A DNA stretch of 64,000 bases from assembly GCA_016871415.1 (NCBI GenBank), contig VHDL01000002.1, forward strand, positions 1 to 64,000, given 5' to 3'. The position numbers were made by a program, and so were the translations under genes. Below are positions 27,429 through 38,026 of this stretch, piece by piece. Numbering within the stretch: position 1 is the first letter of the stretch; the number at the start of each line of letters is the position of its first letter. Source of the DNA: Verrucomicrobiota bacterium. GTDB taxonomy: Bacteria > Verrucomicrobiota > Verrucomicrobiia > Opitutales > UBA953. The notes below the pieces were generated by a model that saw only the letters and a program-made list of their open reading frames with translations, ran no database searches and was not told the origin of the DNA.

Positions 27429-27462
27429 AGGAGAGAAGAGAAAACCTCTGGATCATCTGTAT

Positions 27463-27477
27463 TGCAATTCATTTGCA
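27463..27477 (-). promoter_or_regulatory. Candidate Fur/Zur-family operator upstream of the metal importer
   Basis: Read on the minus strand the site is TGCAAAT-G-AATTGCA, a 7-1-7 inverted repeat with one mismatch, the geometry used by Fur-family repressors. It lies 35 bp upstream of the znuA-like ATG in the AT-rich 120-bp gap between the divergent importer and pilus-like operons. Zur control of a zinc importer is the simplest hypothesis. No regulator gene is in the window. Confidence 0.5.
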
Positions 27478-27550
27478 TAACGGATTGTGCATTTCTTGCC
27501 TAGTTTTGCGTTTGCAACCCACTTTTTGAAAGGATAGCCCTCTATTTCCC

Positions 27551-28216
27551 ATGTCCACGTTGCGTGCCATGACCGCTCTTTTTGGGGTATTCGCCCTAAT
27601 GGCAGGTCCCCTTTTCGGTCAGGCCGCCGCACCTGTCAAAAGCCCCGTCGCCGTTCGCGACGTGAAGTTCATGCAGGTCAGGATAGGCGCCCAGGAGCAT
27701 CCTTGGAACCGGATGCAGGTCGAATTGCAGGCAAACGCCACCCTCGATCCCAAGGCCATCAAGCGCTGGGTGGACAAGGTGAAGGTGACCGTCACCCAGA
27801 TTTACAAGACGGACTCCGCCAAGTTCGAGGACTGGAACTACTACCGTTCTTCCGCCACGGTGCTCACCCTGGAGCTCGGCAAGCCCCGCTCAGTCCTGTT
27901 CTATCTTCCCGGCGACATCGTCAAGCGCGACAACCTGCGCAAGGAGCCAGACTATTATTTCGTCCAGGTCGACGTCGGTGGCACGGAGTCCCCCCTCTTC
28001 GACGCCAAAGGCGCGCTGCTCACGGAGCAGTCCCGTGCCGTGCACCGCGAAATCGCCAAGAAGGACGTCTTCGACAAGGCCAAGGACGCCGCGGACCGCG
28101 GCGTAATCACCACGCCCGGCATCCTGCGCCCCCAGTACCTTCTCATCTTTCCCGACATTGTGCCGGCCGTGCCTGCCTCGCCTGAATTCATCCGCGAGGA
28201 CGCCTCCGCCCGCTGA
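27551..28216 (+). CDS. Amuc_1102-like exported protein of the pilus-like operon
   Basis: This 221-residue protein has a signal peptide (about 1-25, cut near GQAAA) and a compact beta-rich domain ('VAVRDVKFMQVRIGAQEHPW', 'VDKVKVTVTQIYKTD', 'VLTLELGKPRSVLFYLPGD'). It is the first gene of a five-gene operon whose order (this gene, PilM-like, PilO-like, PilP-like, PilQ secretin) matches Akkermansia muciniphila Amuc_1102 to Amuc_1098. Assignment to the Amuc_1102 group rests on position and general features rather than a sequence alignment. It is probably a periplasmic or outer-surface part of the machine. Confidence 0.75.
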   Translation: MSTLRAMTALFGVFALMAGPLFGQAAAPVKSPVAVRDVKFMQVRIGAQEHPWNRMQVELQANATLDPKAIKRWVDKVKVTVTQIYKTDSAKFEDWNYYRSSATVLTLELGKPRSVLFYLPGDIVKRDNLRKEPDYYFVQVDVGGTESPLFDAKGALLTEQSRAVHREIAKKDVFDKAKDAADRGVITTPGILRPQYLLIFPDIVPAVPASPEFIREDASAR

Positions 28217-28240
28217 TCCGACCTGTCCCCAAACCGCAGC

Positions 28241-29935
28241 ATGAGCCAGACCCAGGCGACCATCGTCAATCTTGCGGCGTCCCACGTCTCGGTGTCGGTC
28301 TTCGGCACGTCGTCCGGCAGCCTCGTCCTGCAGCGTTTTCACGTCGAGGAACTCACGTCCGGACTCACCGTCGACGACCAGTGGCTTGACGCGTCCGTTA
28401 ACGCCCTCCGCGACCTCGTCGAGGCTCACGGCATCTCGGGCTACGTGACCGTCATCGTGCCCGGCTTCCTGCTGCTGCAGAAGTCCCTCAAGGTGCCCCA
28501 GGTCGAAAGCCAGAAGCAGGCCCAGATCGTCGCCTACGAGGCCCAGAACGCGATCCCCTATCCGCTCAACGAAGTCATCTGGGACAGCCAGGTGATGTCA
28601 TCGGACGGCGTCGAGGCCGAGGTGCTCCTCTTCGCCCTCCGCACCGAGGTCGCGAGCCGCATCGCCAACCTCGTCTCCTCCACCGGCCTGCGTCCCTATG
28701 CCATTCAGGCCTCGCCCCTCCTTGACAGCCAGGCCTTCCTGCTCGCCGGCGGCTCCGCCACCGAGGAGGTGCTCATCCTCAACGTGGGCGCGCGCTCGAC
28801 CACCCTCAGCTTCGTCGGCCCCGGCGGCGCCAACATCCAGTCCGCCAACATCGGCGGCAACATGCTCACCCAAGGGCTCTCGGACAACACCGGCCAGCCT
28901 TTCGCCGCCGCCGAGGCCCTCAAGGTAGGCTACTTCAGTGGCGTCCTCCATCTCGCCGAGTCCGATCCCCAGGCGGCGCTCCTCCAGTCCAACTCCCAGC
29001 AGTTCATCCGGCGCCTGTCTCAAGACATCAACCGCCGCCTGATCAACGTCCGTCGCGGCGCCGGCGCCCGACAGCCCACCCGCATCCTGCTCACCGGCCG
29101 CGGCACCCTCCTGCCCGGCCTGAAGGAGCAGCTGTGCGAGACCTTGCGCCTGCCCGTCGAGCCCTTCCAGCCCGCTTCCGTCCTCATCCTCGGTGAGGAG
29201 GTCAGCCAAGACCTCGTGCGCCGGACCCAGAACCAGGTTTCCGAAGTCGTCGGCGAGGCCGCGCGGCTACTCCTGCCCCAGGCCGCCGGCGTGAACCTGA
29301 TTCCGAAGGACATCGCCGCGCAGATCGCGTTCTCCGCCCGTCAGCCCAAGCTACTCGCGGCCGCCCTCCTCGCCGCGCTCATTCCTTTCCCCGTCTGGTA
29401 CGTCTACAGTGAGAGCGCGACGCATTCTCAGGATCTTACCTCGAAGCTCACCGCCAAGTCGGCCGAGCTCAAGCGTCACCAGGTTGAGCTGACCGACACG
29501 CGCCAGAAGACGGACGCCGTTCTTGCGGTGAACCGCGAGCTCGAGTCGGTCGTGCTCAACCGGCCCAACTGGCTGGCCTTCCTGGCCGACCTCCAGGTGC
29601 GCATCTCCTCACTCCCCAACACTTGGGTCGAGGAGATGCACGTGCGACGTGAGACCCAGACGCTCCCGCCCGCCGCCGAAGGCGAGCCGCCGCCCCCTCT
29701 GGTCACCGTGTCTAAGGTCATCCTCACGGTGAGATTCCTCCTCCCTGAAGTTGCCCCGCAGCGTCCCCACAACGCCGCCGCGATGAACAAGCGGCAGAAG
29801 GCCCTGCTCGACGCCCTGCGCCAGTCCAAGTTCATCGCCGAGATTCCCGACGGTGACATCAAGGGGGAGTTCACGCCCACCAACTCTCCCAAGCTCACGC
29901 TGACCCTGGTTATCGACAAGGAGGCCTCGCTCTGA
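28241..29935 (+). CDS. PilM-PilN fusion (type IV pilus-like inner-membrane assembly protein)
   Basis: The protein has 564 residues. Residues 1-340 form an actin-like PilM/FtsA-type ATPase ('TIVNLAASHVSVSVF', 'LILNVGARSTTLSF' phosphate-binding strand, 'ANIGGNMLTQGL', 'ILLTGRGTLLPGL'). The motif VNLIPKD follows (NLIP at 352-355), which is the N-terminal PilN peptide that docks on PilM in other bacteria. A membrane helix (about 369-389), a coiled coil (about 395-440) and a PilN-type ferredoxin-like domain come after it. One polypeptide therefore carries cytoplasmic ATPase and periplasmic assembly functions. It corresponds in position to Amuc_1101. Confidence 0.85.
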   Translation: MSQTQATIVNLAASHVSVSVFGTSSGSLVLQRFHVEELTSGLTVDDQWLDASVNALRDLVEAHGISGYVTVIVPGFLLLQKSLKVPQVESQKQAQIVAYEAQNAIPYPLNEVIWDSQVMSSDGVEAEVLLFALRTEVASRIANLVSSTGLRPYAIQASPLLDSQAFLLAGGSATEEVLILNVGARSTTLSFVGPGGANIQSANIGGNMLTQGLSDNTGQPFAAAEALKVGYFSGVLHLAESDPQAALLQSNSQQFIRRLSQDINRRLINVRRGAGARQPTRILLTGRGTLLPGLKEQLCETLRLPVEPFQPASVLILGEEVSQDLVRRTQNQVSEVVGEAARLLLPQAAGVNLIPKDIAAQIAFSARQPKLLAAALLAALIPFPVWYVYSESATHSQDLTSKLTAKSAELKRHQVELTDTRQKTDAVLAVNRELESVVLNRPNWLAFLADLQVRISSLPNTWVEEMHVRRETQTLPPAAEGEPPPPLVTVSKVILTVRFLLPEVAPQRPHNAAAMNKRQKALLDALRQSKFIAEIPDGDIKGEFTPTNSPKLTLTLVIDKEASL

Positions 29936-29937
29936 AC

Positions 29938-31020
29938 ATGGACGCCTTCCGTAAGAACAAGGGCTTCTTCGTCGGGCTGATTCTCGTCGCCCTGGTCTTC
30001 CTTCTCGGCGTCTCCCTGGCGGCGCTCAGCTATCTCGACGCCTCCGACGCCGACAGCCGGCTGCTCTCCGCCCAGCGCGAAGTCAAACTGCTGCTCGACG
30101 GGCATGAGTTCCCGGCCTTCAAGGTGGCGCCCAAGACGGACAAGATCGCCCTCACCGGGGAGTCCACCGAGGCGGCGGCCAAGGACCTGGCCGAGCTCAC
30201 CTCGCGCCAGGCCGAGCTCCGCAAGGTGATCAACGGCGACCCGGATTCCGCTATCAAGGGCCGCGTTTCCGCCAACTCCTCCGAGCTCGCCTCCACCATC
30301 CGCCAGTCCGTGGACGAATGGAAGCGTTTCGCCCAGGACAAGGACGTGCGCCTGCTCCCCAACGACCAGTGCGACTTTGGCTTCCGTCGTTACATCCGCA
30401 ATCCCGGCACCTCGCCCCGCAAGGACCTCGTGCGCGTCGATCAGCAGCGCCTGATTATCGACTACCTTTTCCGTCTCCTGGTCGAATCCCGGCCCGCCGG
30501 TGCGCCCATGCTGCTCCTCTCCGTCGACCGCGAACCCGTCGAGACCTTCGTAATCATCCCCGAGGGCAAGCCCGGAGCCGGCACGCTCGGGCCGGATCCG
30601 GACGGGGTGCGCAACTCGGAGGCGGACGAGTTCTCCCCGACCCGCACTTTCCGACGCAAGGACCTCGTCGAGACGCTTTCCTTCCGCGTGCGCTTCGTCG
30701 GCTCCACGCCGACTTTCCGCACGTTCATCAACAAGCTTCGCAACTCCGGCCGACCCTTCGCCATCACCAGCGTCGACGTGGGCCTGCCCAATGCCGAGAC
30801 GACAAAGATCATTTACGCCGCCACCCCCGCCGCAAACGGCGCGCCGCCCGCCGCCGCGGTCATCCCCGGACTCATCCCCTCTCCCGCCCCGGGCGTCGAT
30901 GCCGCCGCTAAGGACGAGCGCATCACCGTCGTCACGGAGAAGCCCACCGAGTTCACCGTCCAGATTGACTACCTGCACGCGCCCGAAGCCCCTGTCGCGG
31001 AGGGCGAGGCCAAGAAGTAA
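29938..31020 (+). CDS. PilO-like/Amuc_1100-like inner-membrane protein
   Basis: This 360-residue protein has one N-terminal membrane helix (about 10-32) and a long coiled coil (about 40-125). A periplasmic alpha/beta region follows ('CDFGFRRYIRNPG', 'LSFRVRFVGSTPTFRTFIN'), then a Pro/Ala-rich stretch and a C-terminal 'EFTVQIDYLHAPEAP'. The layout and the short matches 'FGF..Y' and 'V.I...H...P' resemble Akkermansia Amuc_1100, the protein studied for host interaction. Start ATG 29938 is 2 bp after the previous stop. It is likely a PilO-type scaffold in the periplasm. Confidence 0.77.
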   Translation: MDAFRKNKGFFVGLILVALVFLLGVSLAALSYLDASDADSRLLSAQREVKLLLDGHEFPAFKVAPKTDKIALTGESTEAAAKDLAELTSRQAELRKVINGDPDSAIKGRVSANSSELASTIRQSVDEWKRFAQDKDVRLLPNDQCDFGFRRYIRNPGTSPRKDLVRVDQQRLIIDYLFRLLVESRPAGAPMLLLSVDREPVETFVIIPEGKPGAGTLGPDPDGVRNSEADEFSPTRTFRRKDLVETLSFRVRFVGSTPTFRTFINKLRNSGRPFAITSVDVGLPNAETTKIIYAATPAANGAPPAAAVIPGLIPSPAPGVDAAAKDERITVVTEKPTEFTVQIDYLHAPEAPVAEGEAKK

Positions 31021-31023
31021 GCC

Positions 31024-32010
31024 ATGAATGCCCGCAAGGACAGCGTCATCATCTGTCTTTCCGCCCTGCTGCTGGCCGTGGCCGGGATCTTCTCTGCCGC
31101 CAAGCTCGGCATGATTGAGGTCATGTTCATCCGCCCCATCTTGCTGGATCCGCAGGCTTCGGCCGCGCAGTTCTCCGAGATCGAGGCTGCCCCCAAGGGC
31201 GTGATCTACCCTTCCACGCCCAGCCCTTCTCTGGAAGACAACGCTCCGGACGTGCCCACGCCCGAGGAGAATGAGGACGGCTGGGACTTCGACCTTTTCA
31301 CCACCATCGACATCGCCTGGGACCCCGTGCTCAAGGAGTACGTGCCCAAGCGCCGCAAGGTGATCCCGCTACCGCCCTTCGGCGTCTCTCTGGCCAAGGT
31401 CGGCCACCCCCGCTACCCTTACATCCTCCGCTTCTCCATCATGGGCCGCAAGGGCCGTGAGGAGATCGACCGCAAGTTCGCCATCGAGAACCTTGAGACC
31501 AAGCAGTACTACGACGGCTGCCGCATTGGTACGCCGCTCGACGCCAACACCCCGGTGGTCCCCGTCTCGTTCGCCGTCGTCAAGGAGAAGGATAAGGACG
31601 GCTTCCTCGTAAGCCGCAACGTGCTCAAGCTCGAGGACAAGAAGCTCGGACGCACCATCGAGATTGACGACGTCAAGCCCGTCGAGTTCTCCGACCAGAC
31701 GGACATCCTGCTGGTCTCCACCTCGGAGCCGGACAAGTCCTGGACCCTGCACGCGATAGGCGACAAGTTCACCTATAACGACGCGGTCTTCGTGGTCAAT
31801 GGCGTTGACTCGGACGCTCGGACAGTGACGCTCAACAAGATTTTCGCCCCCAACCCCAAGAAGCCCAAGAAGACCTTCACCGAGGTGCTTTCGGTTCCTT
31901 CAGCCAAGCCGGTCGCCGTCCCTAGCGCCGCCTCTCCCGCCCCCGGCACCGCCGCTCCTGCGGCGCCCGTCGGCCTCCCTCCCGCCTTCGCCTTGCCCCC
32001 TCCCCAGTAA
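31024..32010 (+). CDS. PilP-like/Amuc_1099-like protein
   Basis: This 328-residue protein has an N-terminal hydrophobic helix (about 8-30), an acidic linker (about 60-90) and two beta-rich regions ('DIAWDPVLKEYVPKRRKVI', 'PYILRFSIMGRKGREEIDR', 'GDKFTYNDAVFVVNGVDSD'). A Pro/Ala/Lys tail follows. In type IV pilus operons a PilP lipoprotein between PilO and PilQ links the inner-membrane complex to the secretin. Here the anchor is a membrane helix and no lipobox is visible. The call is by position and fold-like features, with only weak direct sequence evidence. Confidence 0.72.
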   Translation: MNARKDSVIICLSALLLAVAGIFSAAKLGMIEVMFIRPILLDPQASAAQFSEIEAAPKGVIYPSTPSPSLEDNAPDVPTPEENEDGWDFDLFTTIDIAWDPVLKEYVPKRRKVIPLPPFGVSLAKVGHPRYPYILRFSIMGRKGREEIDRKFAIENLETKQYYDGCRIGTPLDANTPVVPVSFAVVKEKDKDGFLVSRNVLKLEDKKLGRTIEIDDVKPVEFSDQTDILLVSTSEPDKSWTLHAIGDKFTYNDAVFVVNGVDSDARTVTLNKIFAPNPKKPKKTFTEVLSVPSAKPVAVPSAASPAPGTAAPAAPVGLPPAFALPPPQ

Positions 32011-32045
32011 CGCCACCCCAGCGATTTTTAAGAAAAAGCACAAAA

Positions 32046-35000
32046 ATGAAGACGAATTCCCCCTTACGGCTCACCCTCGCCGCCCTCCTCCTGGGCTCTG
32101 TCGCCGGGAATCTTACCGGGCAGGCCACCGACCTGGCGATTCAGCAGGTCCAGCTGCTCAACGAAGCTGTAAAGCTCCGCGACGAGGGTAAGCTCCAGCC
32201 TGCCCTCGAAAAGGTCCAGCAGGTGCTCAAGGCCAATCCGTCCGATGAGGGGGCCAAGGAACTGGTCGCCAGCATCCGGCTTGCCTTGGATGAGGCGACC
32301 AAGAATGCCGCCGCGCCCGCCCCGGGCGCCGCCCCTGCCGTCGAAGTACCGGCCATCCCCGCCGACCCGGCGATTCAGCAGGTCAGACTGCTCAGCGAGG
32401 CGATCAAGCTCAGGGATGAGGGCAAGCTGCAGCCTGCGCTCGAGAAGGCCGACGGCCTGCTCAAACTCGACCCATCCGACGAGGGGGCCAAGGAGCTCCG
32501 CGCCAGCATCGTGCTCGCCCTTGAGGAGGCCGCCAAGAAGGCTCCCGCCGCGCCGGCTCCCGCCGCCCCCATCGATGCGCTCGCCCAGGAGTACGCCGCG
32601 CTCTACGCCGAAGTCGCCGCCGCCATCGCCAGGGCCAAGGCCGAGGCCGCCCGCGGTGACCACGCCAAGGCCGTCGCCACCCTCGACGCCGCCATCGCCG
32701 CGCTCCCCAACATCGTCTCCGCCCAGCCCGTCCGTGACCGCGCCAGCCTGGCCCGTCAGGATGTGCTGATCGACAGGGACGCTGTGAAGCCGGCTTCCGA
32801 TCCTCTTCTCTCCGGAGCCTCCAAGGAAGTGTCTGCCAAGGTTGCCAAGTCCCAGGAGCTGCTCAAGGCGGCCGAGTCGCTCGTCCGCAAGGGCGACGTC
32901 GATTCTCTCTTGGCCGCGCTTAGTGAGCTTGACCGTGCGGGCCGTGAGCTCCCTTCCAACATCGCCGCCGACCTCCTCAAGGAGCGCATCAAGACCGTCC
33001 GCGCCGGCGCGCTCGGCCGTCTCGCCCTTCTCTCCATCAACGCCCGCGAGATGTCCCGTGCCGACGGCTACATCACCGACCTCGAGAAGCTGATGGGCGA
33101 AGCCGATCCCTCGGCCGTCCGTCTGCGTGCCGAATTCAAGGCCCGTCGGTCCGACCCCACCTACCAGAACATCGACGAGCTCTCGCCCGGCATCCGCCAG
33201 AAGGCCGACCGCGTCCAGGAGCTGCTCGTGCGCGGACGCGCGCGCTATCTCTACGGAGACTATCAGGGCGCCATCGAGGTTTACCGCGAGGTCATGCAGT
33301 ACCAGCCCAATAATCCTGAGGCCAAGGCCTATCAGGTGCGCATCCGCGAGCTCCTTTCGGAGACCTCCGGCCAGTGGAACCGCGGCGTGACCAAGGGCAA
33401 GTTGCTCGAGCTGCTCGACGAGACCTGGAAGCTGCCCGAAGTCTTCAACCGCGAGGTCACGATCGTCGGCGGACCGCAGGTCGCCGACCCCATCACCGAA
33501 CGCATTAAGACCATCGTCCTCCCGACCGTCCGCATCCTTGACCAGCCCCTCGACCGCGCCTGCCAGTACATCAGCCAGCAGGCGCAGCAGTATGACAAGG
33601 ACCAGCGCGAGCTGAACATCATCCCCGTTGATCCCGAGCGCAAGAACCCCCCAATCAGCCTCACCATGGCAGGCGTGACGGTTGAGCAGGCGCTCAACAT
33701 CATCACGCGTCAGGCCAACTTCACCTGGATCGTGAGCCAGGGCATCATCGAAGTGCGTCCCGACTCCGGCTCGAGCGACCTCGAGACGGAGTTCTTCCCC
33801 CTCGCCCCTTCCGCGGTGATCAAGATGACGGGCGTCAGCGGTGGAAGCGCCGCTGCTCCCGGCGCCACGGCCAGTCCCTTTGCGGGCGGCGGCGGAGGCT
33901 CCGCCAGCGGCGCCGAAGCCCGCCCCGAGGAGATCGGCATCAAGAATTTCTTCATCCGTTCGGGCGTCGCCTTCGAGGGCGTGAATGGGGCAGCCATGGC
34001 CTACGACGGCACCAACCTCATCGTCACCCAGAACCGTAAGAACCTCGACCGGGTCCGGAACATTCTGCGCCGCTATTCCGACATTAAGCAGGTCTACATC
34101 GAGTCCAAGTTCATCGAAGTCTCGCAGTCCGTCCTCAATGAGCTCGCCACGAACTGGCAGATCATCAATCCGGCGAACGCCATCCGCGCCCAGAGCGAAC
34201 TGCGCACGCTGTCCGGAGTCTTCGGAGTCGCGGCCACATCACAAGCTGGAGGGATTGTAGTTCCTGGACAAGACCCAGTGCCCATTCCCAACCGCCCCCC
34301 GGCCATCTCCGGCAGTAACTTTGGCACCGGCAGTCCGACCTTCGGAGGATTCAACCCAACAACCCAAGCCGGCAACATCGGCCTGATTGACAGCTACAAC
34401 CTCAACCTCTTCCTCCGTGCGGTCGAGCAGAACAGCGGGACGGACCTCATGTCCTCCCCCAGCCTCACCGTGCTCGACGGCAAGACCGCCATCATCAAGG
34501 TGGCCCAGCTGCTCCGTTACCCGCAGTCCTACGGTGACGTGCAGGCCGTCGTCAGCCAGGGCGGCGGCGGCGCCGGCGGCGGGGTCGGCGGCCAGGCCGT
34601 GGCCGTGACCGCGGGCACCCCGCAGGACTTCACCGTGCAGGAAGTCGGCGTGACGCTGGAGGTGACTCCGACCGTCGCGGCCGATGATTCCATCGCGATG
34701 AACCTTAAGCCTAAGGTCATCGAATTCGAGGGCTTCGTGGAATACGGCGGCACCTCCGTCGCCATCTCGGGCTCCACGACCGTCTCCGTCCCCTCAGGCT
34801 TCTTCCAGCCAATCTTCACCACGCGCGAGGTCGTGACCGACGTCACGGTCTTCGACGGCGCGACCGTCGTCATCGGCGGCCTGACCCGCGAGGAGGTCAA
34901 GACGGTCGAGGACAAGGTGCCCGTGCTCGGTGACATCCCTCTGATCGGCGCGGCCTTCCGGTCCTCCGGCAAGAGCACCAGCAAGCGCAACCTCATGGTC

Positions 35001-35195
35001 TTCGTGACCGCCAACCTGGTCTCTCCGGGCGGCGCCACACTCCGCAGCTCCCACTCCGGCATGCGCGCCGGCTCGACCTTCTCGAACCCCGTCCTGGCTT
35101 CGCCGGGAGGTGCCGTCTACCGCGAGCCGGTCGAGCCCGCCGCCCCGGCCGCGCCCACCGCGCCCACCGCGCCCGCGGCTCCGGTAGCTAACTGA
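32046..35195 (+). CDS. PilQ/GspD-type outer-membrane secretin (Amuc_1098-like)
   Basis: The protein has 1049 residues with a signal peptide (about 1-25). Residues 29-88 and 108-167 are two nearly identical TPR-like repeats ('LRDEGKLQPALEKVQQVLK' and 'LRDEGKLQPALEKADGLLK'). More helical and TPR-like sequence follows to about 470. An STN/N0-type domain comes next (about 495-570, 'ILDQPLDRACQYISQQAQQ', 'VTVEQALNIITRQANFTW'). An N1-like domain (about 640-700) precedes the secretin barrel (about 790-1000, 'SSPSLTVLDGKTAIIKV', 'ATVVIGGLTREEVKTVEDK', 'VPVLGDIPLIGAAF'). The C-terminal tail is Ala/Pro-rich. It forms the outer-membrane pore. No PilB, PilT or PilC gene is nearby. Confidence 0.9.
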   Translation: MKTNSPLRLTLAALLLGSVAGNLTGQATDLAIQQVQLLNEAVKLRDEGKLQPALEKVQQVLKANPSDEGAKELVASIRLALDEATKNAAAPAPGAAPAVEVPAIPADPAIQQVRLLSEAIKLRDEGKLQPALEKADGLLKLDPSDEGAKELRASIVLALEEAAKKAPAAPAPAAPIDALAQEYAALYAEVAAAIARAKAEAARGDHAKAVATLDAAIAALPNIVSAQPVRDRASLARQDVLIDRDAVKPASDPLLSGASKEVSAKVAKSQELLKAAESLVRKGDVDSLLAALSELDRAGRELPSNIAADLLKERIKTVRAGALGRLALLSINAREMSRADGYITDLEKLMGEADPSAVRLRAEFKARRSDPTYQNIDELSPGIRQKADRVQELLVRGRARYLYGDYQGAIEVYREVMQYQPNNPEAKAYQVRIRELLSETSGQWNRGVTKGKLLELLDETWKLPEVFNREVTIVGGPQVADPITERIKTIVLPTVRILDQPLDRACQYISQQAQQYDKDQRELNIIPVDPERKNPPISLTMAGVTVEQALNIITRQANFTWIVSQGIIEVRPDSGSSDLETEFFPLAPSAVIKMTGVSGGSAAAPGATASPFAGGGGGSASGAEARPEEIGIKNFFIRSGVAFEGVNGAAMAYDGTNLIVTQNRKNLDRVRNILRRYSDIKQVYIESKFIEVSQSVLNELATNWQIINPANAIRAQSELRTLSGVFGVAATSQAGGIVVPGQDPVPIPNRPPAISGSNFGTGSPTFGGFNPTTQAGNIGLIDSYNLNLFLRAVEQNSGTDLMSSPSLTVLDGKTAIIKVAQLLRYPQSYGDVQAVVSQGGGGAGGGVGGQAVAVTAGTPQDFTVQEVGVTLEVTPTVAADDSIAMNLKPKVIEFEGFVEYGGTSVAISGSTTVSVPSGFFQPIFTTREVVTDVTVFDGATVVIGGLTREEVKTVEDKVPVLGDIPLIGAAFRSSGKSTSKRNLMVFVTANLVSPGGATLRSSHSGMRAGSTFSNPVLASPGGAVYREPVEPAAPAAPTAPTAPAAPVAN

Positions 35196-35219
35196 AAGCC
35201 CGCGCATCGGCCGCTGAAC

Positions 35220-35249
35220 GGGCCCGCCTCACGGCGGGCCCGCTTTTTT
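35220..35249 (+). terminator. Rho-independent terminator after the secretin gene
   Basis: GGGCCCGCC and GGCGGGCCC form a perfect 9-bp stem with a TCAC loop, followed by GC and six T residues. It begins 25 bp after the secretin stop and closes the pilus-like operon. Confidence 0.92.
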
Positions 35250-35284: not shown

Positions 35285-36259
35285 ATGCGCTGGATGCTAG
35301 TCGACGGCTTCAACCTGGTCTTCCGCAGCCATTTCGCGATGGAGCGGTCCAATCTCCGCCGTCAGTCGGATCAGTTTCCCACCGGCGCCCTGCACGGCTG
35401 GATCAAGTCTCTGCTCGACCTGCGTGATTCGGAAAAGCCCGACCGGGCCGCCGTCTTCTTCGACCTCGGCGGATCGGATCGTCATCTTGCGGCGCATCCC
35501 GAATACAAGGCGCAGCGGGATGACACGCCGGAGGACATCGTGCTCCAGCTGCCGGAGGTCAAGCGGCTGACGGCCCTGCTCGGTTTCCAGGTGGTCGAGC
35601 GGCGGGGCGTCGAGGCCGATGACCTGATCGCGACGGCGGTGCGGCGGCTCTCCGCCGAAGGCCACGGGTGCGTCATCGTCAGCGCGGACAAGGATTTCGG
35701 CCAATGCGTCGGGGGCGAGGTCTTCCAGCTCGCGCCTCCGCCCACCGCCAATCCGTCTGCCGGATGGCGTCGGCTTGACGCGGCTGGCGTCACCGAGAAG
35801 TTCGGGGTCCCTCCGGCGCGCATCGCCGACTACCTCGCCTTGGTCGGAGACGCGTCGGACAACATCCCGGGCCTGCGCGGAGTCGGGCCCAAGACCGCCG
35901 TGAAATGGATCTCCGAGCATGGCGGCCTCGAGCAGGTGCTCGCCGCGGCTGACCGGCTCGAGCCCGGGCGCTTCCGCGAGCAGGTGCGCGCGGAGGCCGA
36001 CCGCATCCGCGCCAACCTCGACCTGGTGACCTTTCGGACCGATTATGAGCTCGACCTGGGCGAGGCCCCCGTCGAGGACGTCGAGGGCGTGGAGCGGTTA
36101 CTCGGTGAGATGGAGATGCACGCCACCTTGCGCCGTTACCGCGCCCGGCACGGCAGGGATGCTGCCGACAATGCGTCCGCCTCGGCGCCTTCCGTCCCAC
36201 AGAGGCCCCCGAAGCCTCCGGAGCCTTCCGGCGGCTCCGTGCAGGGGGAGCTCTTCTGA
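35285..36259 (+). CDS. 5'-3' exonuclease (PolI N-terminal/flap endonuclease family)
   Basis: This 324-residue stand-alone homologue of the 5' nuclease domain of DNA polymerase I has acidic metal ligands in 'LVDGFNLVFR' (D7), 'VEADDLIATAVR' and 'VIVSADKDFGQ'. The 'LVGDASDNIPGLRGVGPKTA' block is a helix-hairpin-helix with the GDxSDNIPG signature. It would remove RNA primers or flaps during replication and repair. The last five residues, QGELF (320-324), fit the QxxLF type of beta-clamp-binding peptide after a Pro-rich flexible tail. ATG 35285 follows the terminator closely, so it probably has its own promoter. Confidence 0.92.
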   Translation: MRWMLVDGFNLVFRSHFAMERSNLRRQSDQFPTGALHGWIKSLLDLRDSEKPDRAAVFFDLGGSDRHLAAHPEYKAQRDDTPEDIVLQLPEVKRLTALLGFQVVERRGVEADDLIATAVRRLSAEGHGCVIVSADKDFGQCVGGEVFQLAPPPTANPSAGWRRLDAAGVTEKFGVPPARIADYLALVGDASDNIPGLRGVGPKTAVKWISEHGGLEQVLAAADRLEPGRFREQVRAEADRIRANLDLVTFRTDYELDLGEAPVEDVEGVERLLGEMEMHATLRRYRARHGRDAADNASASAPSVPQRPPKPPEPSGGSVQGELF

Positions 36260-36310: not shown

Positions 36311-37168
36311 TCAGTTCTTCTTCTCCGCCTTCTTCTCGGCCTTCGGAGCCTCGGTCTTGGGGGCTCCGGCCGCGGCGGCGGCGGCCTGCTGGCCGGCCTG
36401 CTGCTGCTGGATGGCGCCCACGACCGTGTTCACTTCCTCCTGGTTGAGCAGGATCACGAACTTGCTCTCGAGGACTTCGACCTCGTAATTGTGGGTGATG
36501 GAGTAGCCGACGCTCTGGGCCATCTCCTGATTGCCCTTGTCGAGGGCCTGGGCGGCTTGGTCGAGCAGATTCTTGAGCTTCTTCTTCTCCTCCTCGGCCG
36601 TCGCTCGCTCGTGCATGGAGCGCAGCTGCACGAAGGCGTCGCGGCGAGCCTGGAGCTCCTTGGTGAAACGTTCGAACATGACGATGGCGTCGAGGCTGAG
36701 CAGGTCGGCCACGCGGAGCAGGCGGCGCTCACCGCGCACGACGAGGTCCTCCTCCTTGAAGTCCCTCGCGGCACGGGCCTTGGCGGCCTCCTCCTCGTTC
36801 ACCACGGCGTGCAGGCGGAGCTTAGTGTTCACCAGCGCTGTCTGGCGGTCGGCGATGAGCGGAAGGCTGAAGTAGCGACGGGCGAAGATCGCGTCTTTTT
36901 CGTTGAAGTCCTTCACCTCGGTTTCGAGGATCTTGGCAAGTGCGTCCTTCTCGGGCGTGGTCAGGGCCGTCTGCTGGCGCTGCTGCAGCTGACGGAGCCG
37001 GCCGAACTGCTGGCCGTGCGCGTTGAGCTCCTGCTGGAAACGGACGATCGCGTCCTGACCGGTGAGGGTCAGGGCGACTCGGCCGAGGTTCTGGCCGAGC
37101 GGGAGGATCTCGATGACTGGGCCCTTGGGGGCTTCGGCGGGAGCTTCAGGGGTGGCGGCGGTGCTCAT
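36311..37168 (-). CDS. Uncharacterised coiled-coil protein, paralogue of the gene at 37199
   Basis: This 285-residue protein has no signal peptide and no recognised family. It is dominated by helical, Gln/Glu/Lys/Ala-rich sequence (about 40-90, 110-230). It carries two motifs shared with the upstream gene: 'ALTTPEKDALAK' (neighbour ALTTPEREARSK) and 'RQTALVNTKLRLHAVVNEEE' (neighbour 'RQYLVVQTKLNVLSALSNEE'). The C-terminal halves are alike as well ('LESKFVILLNQEE' against 'AEAKLYTLLSDEE'). The end is an Ala/Lys-rich tail (PKAEKKAEKKN). A duplication with loss of the signal sequence is likely. The role is unknown. Confidence 0.75.
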   Translation of the reverse strand: MSTAATPEAPAEAPKGPVIEILPLGQNLGRVALTLTGQDAIVRFQQELNAHGQQFGRLRQLQQRQQTALTTPEKDALAKILETEVKDFNEKDAIFARRYFSLPLIADRQTALVNTKLRLHAVVNEEEAAKARAARDFKEEDLVVRGERRLLRVADLLSLDAIVMFERFTKELQARRDAFVQLRSMHERATAEEEKKKLKNLLDQAAQALDKGNQEMAQSVGYSITHNYEVEVLESKFVILLNQEEVNTVVGAIQQQQAGQQAAAAAAGAPKTEAPKAEKKAEKKN

Positions 37169-37198: not shown

Positions 37199-38026
37199 TC
37201 ACTTCTTCTCTTCGTCCTTCTTGGCCGGGGTCTGGTCGCCTAGGCGCTTACTCTCCTCGTCCGAGAGCAGGGTGTAGAGCTTGGCCTCGGCCGTCTGGAG
37301 CGTAATTTCGCCGGGCAGGTCGTAACCGCGGGACTTCCTGAATTCCTCGAGCGCGGCGTTCACCTCGCCCTGGGCGTTCTTGACGGCGTCCTCGACTTTC
37401 TTCTTGTCCGCGTCCTTGGTGAGGCGGGGCTGGAGGTCGACGAGCTGCTGCAGCGCGCGGCGGGTCTCCATGACGCGCTGCACCTGGAGCTTGAAGGCCT
37501 CGACTTCCACGGCGCCGCTGACGGAGCCTCGGTTAAGGAACTTCTTGTCGCCGGCGTTGACGACCGACTCGGACTTGAACTCCTTGTCGGCGGCGAGCTT
37601 GATGTATTCCTCGTTGGAAAGGGCGGAAAGCACGTTGAGCTTGGTCTGCACCACGAGGTACTGGCGGCTCAGGTCGAAGCCGTAGTTCTTAGCCATGGTC
37701 GCGTTGTCGGACTGCAGCACGGCCAGCTTGGCCTCGAACTCCTTGCTCCGAGCCTCGCGCTCGGGGGTCGTCAGGGCGATCTGCGCCAGCTGTTGGACCT
37801 GCTGGGCCTCCTGACGCTTCTGGTTGATGACCTGGACATTCCGCTCGAAGTTGGCGAAGTCTTCCACGGCGGCGAAGTTGCGGACGAGGACGAAGCGCTT
37901 GCCTTCGACCTCGAGCACCTCGACCTGGGCGGTCTTGGGGTCCGCCGGCTTGGCGTCGGCGGGCTTGGTCTCCTGCGCGATCGCGGACAAGGCGCAAAAG
38001 CAGAGGAATGCAGTCAACTTCTTCAT
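37199..38026 (-). CDS. Exported coiled-coil protein of unknown function, paralogue of the gene at 36311
   Basis: This 275-residue protein has a signal peptide (MKKLTAFLCFCALSAIAQ), a Lys/Pro/Ala-rich linker and then 'VLEVEGKRFVLVRNFAAVEDF' and long helical stretches. It shares a repeated layout with the adjacent downstream gene. A second copy of the 'TKLxxLSxLxxEE' pattern appears near its own C-terminus ('EAKLYTLLSDEESKRL'), so each protein may itself be an internal duplication. The Lys-rich end is KKDEEKK. A TATTAT box lies near 38087 on the minus strand as a possible -10. It may be a periplasmic or surface scaffold; no enzyme motif is seen. Confidence 0.75.
   Translation of the reverse strand: MKKLTAFLCFCALSAIAQETKPADAKPADPKTAQVEVLEVEGKRFVLVRNFAAVEDFANFERNVQVINQKRQEAQQVQQLAQIALTTPEREARSKEFEAKLAVLQSDNATMAKNYGFDLSRQYLVVQTKLNVLSALSNEEYIKLAADKEFKSESVVNAGDKKFLNRGSVSGAVEVEAFKLQVQRVMETRRALQQLVDLQPRLTKDADKKKVEDAVKNAQGEVNAALEEFRKSRGYDLPGEITLQTAEAKLYTLLSDEESKRLGDQTPAKKDEEKK

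Follow-up and report, generated by a model that had tools for sequence, protein, structure and literature searches.

Which machine does a pilus-type operon build when no motor gene stands beside it? This question is raised by a locus in a stretch of 64,000 nucleotides from a Verrucomicrobiota bacterium of the order Opitutales (GenBank assembly GCA_016871415.1, contig VHDL01000002.1, positions 1 to 64,000 of the forward strand; hereafter the window). At 27551-35195 on the + strand lies a five-gene operon with the gene order of Akkermansia Amuc_1102-1098, the MUL2 system. An initial annotation, made from the sequence alone, had described it as an Amuc_1102-1098-like pilus/secretin operon outside Akkermansia without motor genes, and had suggested an ancestral envelope machine rather than a gut adaptation. 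As described below, the operon is very probably one half, the scaffold, of a split type IV pilus; the motor genes are located elsewhere in the same genome (G000; 2.21 Mb, 60 contigs, 99.5% complete).

For the phylum such an operon is nothing unusual, and its occurrence outside Akkermansia, correctly annotated, has already been published. The name PilQ for Amuc_1098 goes back to Ottman et al. 2016, who also observed that other Verrucomicrobia have homologues (PMC4960237). According to the main text of Wilkie et al. 2026 (PMC13174399), syntenic MUL2 (amuc_1099-1102) occurs in marine and freshwater Akkermansiaceae and Verrucomicrobiales, lies next to dephospho-CoA kinase and rho, is conserved more weakly in Chthoniobacterales and not at all in Methylacidiphilales, and represents an ancestral polysaccharide-attachment system; that main text mentions neither Opitutales nor a link to a motor operon. 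The accessible literature yielded no description of the undivided cluster, of the coaE-rho junction or of the assignment of motors reported here, an earlier mention of motors in Davey et al. 2023 or Hughes et al. 2025 not being excluded, and the open-access literature searched contained no paper with Akkermansia, PilQ and PilT together. The motor link is the part of the finding most worth following.

Homology of the five genes to Akkermansia MUL2

All five open reading frames (Table 1) were confirmed on the + strand. The intergenic gaps are 24, 2, 3 and 35 bp; the first gap, which the annotation had set apart from its range of 2-35 bp, is thus unremarkable as well. Because genes 2 and 5 match family models and homologues of genes 1, 2 and 3 stand in the same order in about 90 of 98 related loci, the five reading frames did not arise by chance.

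Gene 2 matched NF045709 (Amuc_1101_fam) at 8e-77 and PilM_2 at 1.8e-18, and gene 5 matched NF042912 (Amuc_1098_fam) at 9e-97, Secretin at 7e-36 and TPR models as well. The match of gene 3 to Amuc_1100_fam was borderline only (E 0.04), and genes 1 and 4 gave no match in single-sequence searches against NCBIfam models. To avoid circular profiles, Opitutales and Akkermansiaceae proteins were aligned separately and the profiles were then compared by hhalign. Gene 1 (Opitutales set A3) matched Amuc_1102 (Akkermansiaceae set A6) with a probability of 93.9% and an E-value of 1.6e-7, gene 3 (A4) matched Amuc_1100 (A7) with 99.7% and 1.6e-26, and gene 4 (A5) matched Amuc_1099 (A8) with 97.5% and 7e-12. 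The negative control with mismatched profiles gave 2.1%. Direct searches of the PDB were empty for these three genes: phmmer with the single gene 3 protein found no relevant match, and no related PDB chain came up with profile hidden Markov models of the three genes. Hence their homology rests on the clade-separate comparison and on fold.

The equivalog models (NF045709, NF038287, NF042912, NF042424 and NF042425 were tested) have cut-offs that the window proteins missed, with 259 of 650 bits for gene 2, 13 of 180 for gene 3 and 325 of 750 for gene 5. Judged by these scores, the window operon is a distant homologue of Akkermansia MUL2, not an equivalog by the NCBI definition. Both loci have the same five genes in the same order and on one strand, each gene linked by a profile or a model, and the annotated match to Amuc_1102-1098 was thus upheld by NCBIfam models, by hhalign and by the fold of gene 3. 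They differ in that identity is only ~25% for genes 2 and 5, that genes 1, 3 and 4 lack significant pairwise BLAST similarity, and that coaE-rho follows pilQ in Akkermansia but not in the window. In the Akkermansia genome used here (G113), the MUL2 proteins agree nearly perfectly with the PDB entries for Amuc_1100 and Amuc_1102, and all five exceed the NCBIfam cut-offs; the genome was therefore treated as that of A. muciniphila or a near relative.

The identical gene order could also be explained by horizontal transfer of the Akkermansia operon into this freshwater lineage, an idea that is scarcely credible given the ~25% identity of genes 2 and 5 to Akkermansia. Among relatives with record names, the nearest PilM proteins come from metagenome-assembled genomes of freshwater Opitutae/Opitutales (best 69-88% identity), and nearly the whole phylum has the gene: an Amuc_1101-type PilM at E 2e-21 or better was counted by hand in about 257 of the 288 sampled genomes. 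The view of an ancestral system that is not gut-derived agrees with this distribution and with the main text of PMC13174399.

Architecture of the scaffold proteins

No type III prepilin motif and no lipobox was found by the motif scan of gene 1, whose product is predicted to be an exported accessory protein of the Amuc_1102 type. Gene 2 had been annotated as a PilM-like ATPase. It does contain the PilM actin-like domain, and this is followed by a VNLIP motif, a membrane helix (about 371-389) and a periplasmic domain. A PilM profile of nine Opitutales proteins matched the PilM structures 3jc8 and 2ych, and its alignment reached the NLLP of the PilN peptide in the PDB PilM-PilN chimera 5eou. The leucine and proline of the PilN-like motif (L353 and P355) are invariant in 17 aligned proteins, Akkermansia included. 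As the profile reaches the PilN peptide, both residues are invariant and a helix follows, gene 2 is better read as a PilM-PilN fusion, in which PilM and a PilN carrying the N-terminal INLLP-type motif are joined in one protein. The set then runs PilM-N, PilO, PilP-position, PilQ, which is the usual pilMNOPQ order.

Gene 3 encodes an N-terminal membrane helix, a coiled coil and a two-motif periplasmic core. In a Foldseek search with its AlphaFold2 model (predicted local distance difference test, pLDDT, 82.6), ranks 1-10 were all Amuc_1100 crystal chains. VIA alignment to the Amuc_1100 crystals 6lad/6laf/6kny gave Z 16.4-17.2, the top value of 17.2 being reached at 4.0 A over 179 residues. The next ranks after these crystals were taken by PilO structures (2rjz of Pseudomonas, Z 8.9; 5uvr, Z 7.1), together with the 3jc8 model. 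The structure comparison that the initial annotation had proposed for the 29938-31020 product therefore returned Amuc_1100 as the best match (Z about 17) and PilO next (Z about 9).

Gene 4 had been called PilP-like, which is supported by its operon position and by its profile link to Amuc_1099; no PilP fold was matched. The protein is bitopic in the membrane, with a predicted beta-rich periplasmic domain and no lipobox (model pLDDT 81.6); the "PilP" label we keep for it is a provisional one, based only on position and on that link. A side observation concerns the Akkermansiaceae Amuc_1099 alignment A8 (L149:7366-8376), where an invariant DxDxDG (D133, D135, D137, G138) resembles a calcium-binding loop.

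Motor, pilin and secretion genes elsewhere in the genome

No pilB, pilT, pilC or pilin gene adjoins the operon in the window, so the annotated absence of motor genes is true of the immediate neighbourhood. It does not hold for the genome. Four PF00437 ATPases are encoded there, and three of them stand together in one operon on contig C6 (G000:C6; L007 8032-13774, minus strand), which comprises PilC, PilB, PilT and a second PilB beside coaE and ftsH. The C6 PilT scored 429 bits against TIGR01420 (cut-off 319), and neither C6 PilB reached the cut-off of the TfpB model. A prepilin peptidase (Peptidase_A24) and ten N-methylation-type pilin genes, including a four-gene cassette at C11, are also present. 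Thus all classes of the machine are found in this genome, and the synteny analysis and pilB/pilT/pilin search suggested with the annotation showed the operon to be widespread in the phylum and did not support the motor-less claim as stated.

The fourth PF00437 ATPase is part of a separate type II secretion set (GspD, GspE, GspF and GspG, the last above its cut-off). This set is divided between contigs C7 (L008 1-6339; GspD, GspE, GspF) and C32 (L216 7034-11662; GspG and a GspI-like protein). With this set present, type II secretion can be explained without the C6 motors. It is improbable that the window operon is part of a type II secretion system and not of a pilus, although the secretin and PilC score about equal or better on GspD/GspF models, the fused PilM-PilN is laid out like GspL, and the Amuc_1099-like protein of genome G015 has a marginal GspC match (E 0.03). 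The GspD-GspE-GspF-GspG set is unlinked to the operon, the motors of the whole cluster described below include PilT, a retraction ATPase, over its curated cut-off, and the window proteins match PilM structures (gene 2 profile) and PilO (gene 3 model).

Scaffold and motor genes in one cluster

In two genomes of family f22 (G015 and G157), a family other than that of the window, both halves form one same-strand run. In G015 (C26:14009-36267) this run reads pilB2-pilT-pilB1-pilC, three pilins, a 704-aa protein, 1102-1101-1100-1099-1098, a 698-aa protein, coaE and rho. The arrangement in G157 is identical, except that no pilin was recognised between its two halves. The MUL2 proteins of G015 matched the NCBIfam models at 3e-10 (1102), 1.5e-149 (1101), 1.6e-15 (1100), 1.2e-10 (1099) and 4.9e-133 (1098).

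The junctions of coaE-rho suggest where the halves parted. In Akkermansia and Verrucomicrobiaceae-like loci (L149, L150) coaE-rho comes directly after pilQ, and in the majority of the Opitutales motor loci inspected (L195, L197, L208, L210, L212 and others) directly before pilB2; the Rho domains were verified in L195, L210 and L149. In the window's own family, ftsH-coaE-pilB2 persists (L007, L193). These positions are most simply explained by a single ancestral cluster that was broken on different sides of coaE-rho. The one-run cluster of G015 and G157, these junctions and the co-occurrence reported next are three reasons to regard the two halves as belonging together.

Co-occurrence of the two operons across the phylum

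Among the matches listed, the tandem-PilB motor operon was counted by hand in 72 of 79 MUL2-positive and 3 of 19 MUL2-negative genomes (Fisher p 2e-10). Within the order the corresponding values were 32/37 and 2/9 (Fisher p 4e-4, among the matches listed). Absence of MUL2 was first scored on PilM alone and was revised after a secretin search; four ambiguous genomes (G134, G280, G290 and G269) were dropped, and the split-contig case G146 was left out of the count. Both operons are missing in genomes of several families (f3, f8, f64, f65, f68 and others), and this suggests, with kinship ignored, more than one loss.

A motor-less envelope machine, that is, a static trans-envelope channel or adhesive complex that dispenses with PilB and PilT while the motor operon serves another system, would be consistent with the lack of an adjacent motor gene in the window and in the Akkermansia locus, and with the few genomes that carry MUL2 without a tandem PilB pair. 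Besides, the amount implied for A. muciniphila (PMC4960237) may exceed the needs of a few pili per cell. We consider this alternative unlikely. G015 has motors, pilins and MUL2 genes side by side, and G157 has the motors with the MUL2 genes; MUL2 strongly co-occurs with the tandem PilB pair; a PilM that bears the PilN motif and a PilO fold both belong to motor-driven machines; and type II secretion is already served by an ATPase of its own set.

Several observations weigh against the split-pilus reading and should be pointed out. The Fisher test ignores kinship, the genomes were not randomly drawn, and presence was scored by hand among the matches listed. MUL2 occurs without a tandem PilB pair in G060, G116, G207, G223, G304, G046 and G194, and the pair without MUL2 in G108 and G281, and also in G283, which has a stop in one pilB. 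The model of gene 4 gave no clear match in the PDB by Foldseek or VIA-align, with no PilP among the rows. In the host genome the scaffold and motor halves, contiguous in G015 and G157 and co-occurring elsewhere, are unlinked (different contigs), and rho no longer lies between coaE and pilB2. Among the host's pilin-type genes no single one stood out as the major pilin, and a comparison with the G015 cluster, using its three pilins and its 704-aa protein, picked out no unique counterpart in the host.

Some genomes depart from the common pattern in other ways. An Amuc_1098-type secretin with no tandem PilB pair was seen at G280:C4:37618-41755, G134:C26:23681-25315 and G290:C93:21401-23311; no strong Amuc_1101-type PilM was found in G134 and G280, nor in G290, which was searched with the window protein only. 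These systems are possibly partial or diverged. In L207 (G283:C65), a motor operon in an Opitutales genome without MUL2 genes, one pilB is broken by a TAG stop and the pilC match is short, as though loss of the scaffold half were followed by decay of the motor half. In the 1.4 Mb Opitutales genome G204, which has MUL2 and the tandem PilB pair, no PilT scored over the family cut-off; this pilus may do without an ATPase dedicated to retraction. In L165, L152, L154 and L166, two or three tandem PilQ-like secretin genes lie beside the MUL2 operon.

The proposed machine and its relation to known pili

On the split-pilus reading, the window operon would supply a cell-envelope scaffold of an exported accessory protein, an inner-membrane PilM-PilN fusion, PilO, the PilP/GspC-position protein and the PilQ secretin. 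The second operon would provide two PilB-type extension ATPases, PilT and PilC, and further loci the pilins and prepilin peptidase. The two operons would be halves of one ancestral gene cluster, still whole in some members of the phylum, and the separated halves would still assemble into one machine in the host. Such a pilus would presumably extend and retract and, in line with what has been proposed for MUL2, may function in attachment or in the capture of polysaccharides.

With the type IVa pilus (pilMNOPQ and pilB/T/C of Pseudomonas, Myxococcus and Thermus) the host shares PilM, the PilN motif, the PilO fold, PilQ, PilB, PilT and PilC, as well as a prepilin peptidase and pilin-type genes. 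In contrast to that pilus, PilM and PilN are fused, an extra Amuc_1102-type gene is present, the secretin bears a TPR region, two PilB genes share one operon, and the scaffold and motor operons are unlinked. While type IVa PilP is a lipoprotein with an HR-type beta domain, the host protein at the PilP position has a membrane helix and no lipobox. Two extension ATPases for one pilus system are likewise reported for Acinetobacter baylyi (PMC8213720); unlike there, the two pilB genes of the host share one operon.

Features and neighbours of the locus

If the operon is one transcript, the 122-bp divergent region before gene 1 must carry its promoter. A scan of 27429..27550 found no sigma-70-type site. 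At the operon's end, where a strong terminator had been annotated, lies a strong terminator-like hairpin (Table 1).

Table 1. Coordinates of the features of the operon in the window
Feature	Coordinates	Strand	Evidence
Divergent intergenic region, 122 bp, between znuA-like gene (-) and gene 1	27429..27550	+	coordinates
Gene 1, 221 aa, Amuc_1102 (MUL2A) homologue, predicted small exported protein	27551..28216	+	hhalign, synteny, motif scan
Gene 2, 564 aa, Amuc_1101 (MUL2B) homologue, PilM-PilN fusion	28241..29935	+	NF045709, PilM_2, PilM structures
Gene 3, 360 aa, Amuc_1100 homologue = PilO	29938..31020	+	hhalign, AlphaFold2 model
Gene 4, 328 aa, Amuc_1099 homologue, PilP/GspC position	31024..32010	+	hhalign, predicted model
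Gene 5, 1049 aa, Amuc_1098 homologue = PilQ secretin, N-terminal TPR region	32046..35195	+	NF042912, Secretin, TPR models
Intrinsic-terminator-like hairpin, 10 G-C pairs then CTTTTTT	35219..35242	+	fold z -2.3

The upstream flank is a divergent zinc-type ABC transporter (znuABC-like). Downstream, 35285-36259 encodes a stand-alone 5'-3' exonuclease, like the N-terminal domain of DNA polymerase I, which stays beside the operon in freshwater Opitutales. Two adjacent minus-strand genes of similar size (36311-37168 and 37199-38026) have no confident family match; both are conserved next to the operon in freshwater Opitutales.

Implications for Akkermansia

In the Akkermansia genome G113 (contig C1), MUL2 lies at 1.315 Mb. 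Motor genes are found at two other places, a tandem PilT pair at 0.202 Mb and, at about 1.905 Mb, a pilB2-pilB1-pilC-pilin operon (L199). The L199 operon is without pilT, and the tandem pair of PilT-family ATPases (C1:202311-204408) is far off. The L199 operon and this pair, both far from Amuc_1098-1102, are the candidate set for what powers MUL2 in Akkermansia.

We propose tentatively, at somewhat less than even odds, that the MUL2/Amuc_1100 system and its relatives across the phylum form a type IV pilus able to retract, equipped with PilT and a pair of extension ATPases, that pilus dynamics would drive the capture of mucin or algal polysaccharides and their periplasmic uptake, and that Amuc_1100 would be its PilO, an inner-membrane scaffold rather than a surface pilus protein. 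Amuc_1100 has been studied as a surface-active probiotic protein; the PilO fold and position suggested here bear on the route by which it could reach the host.

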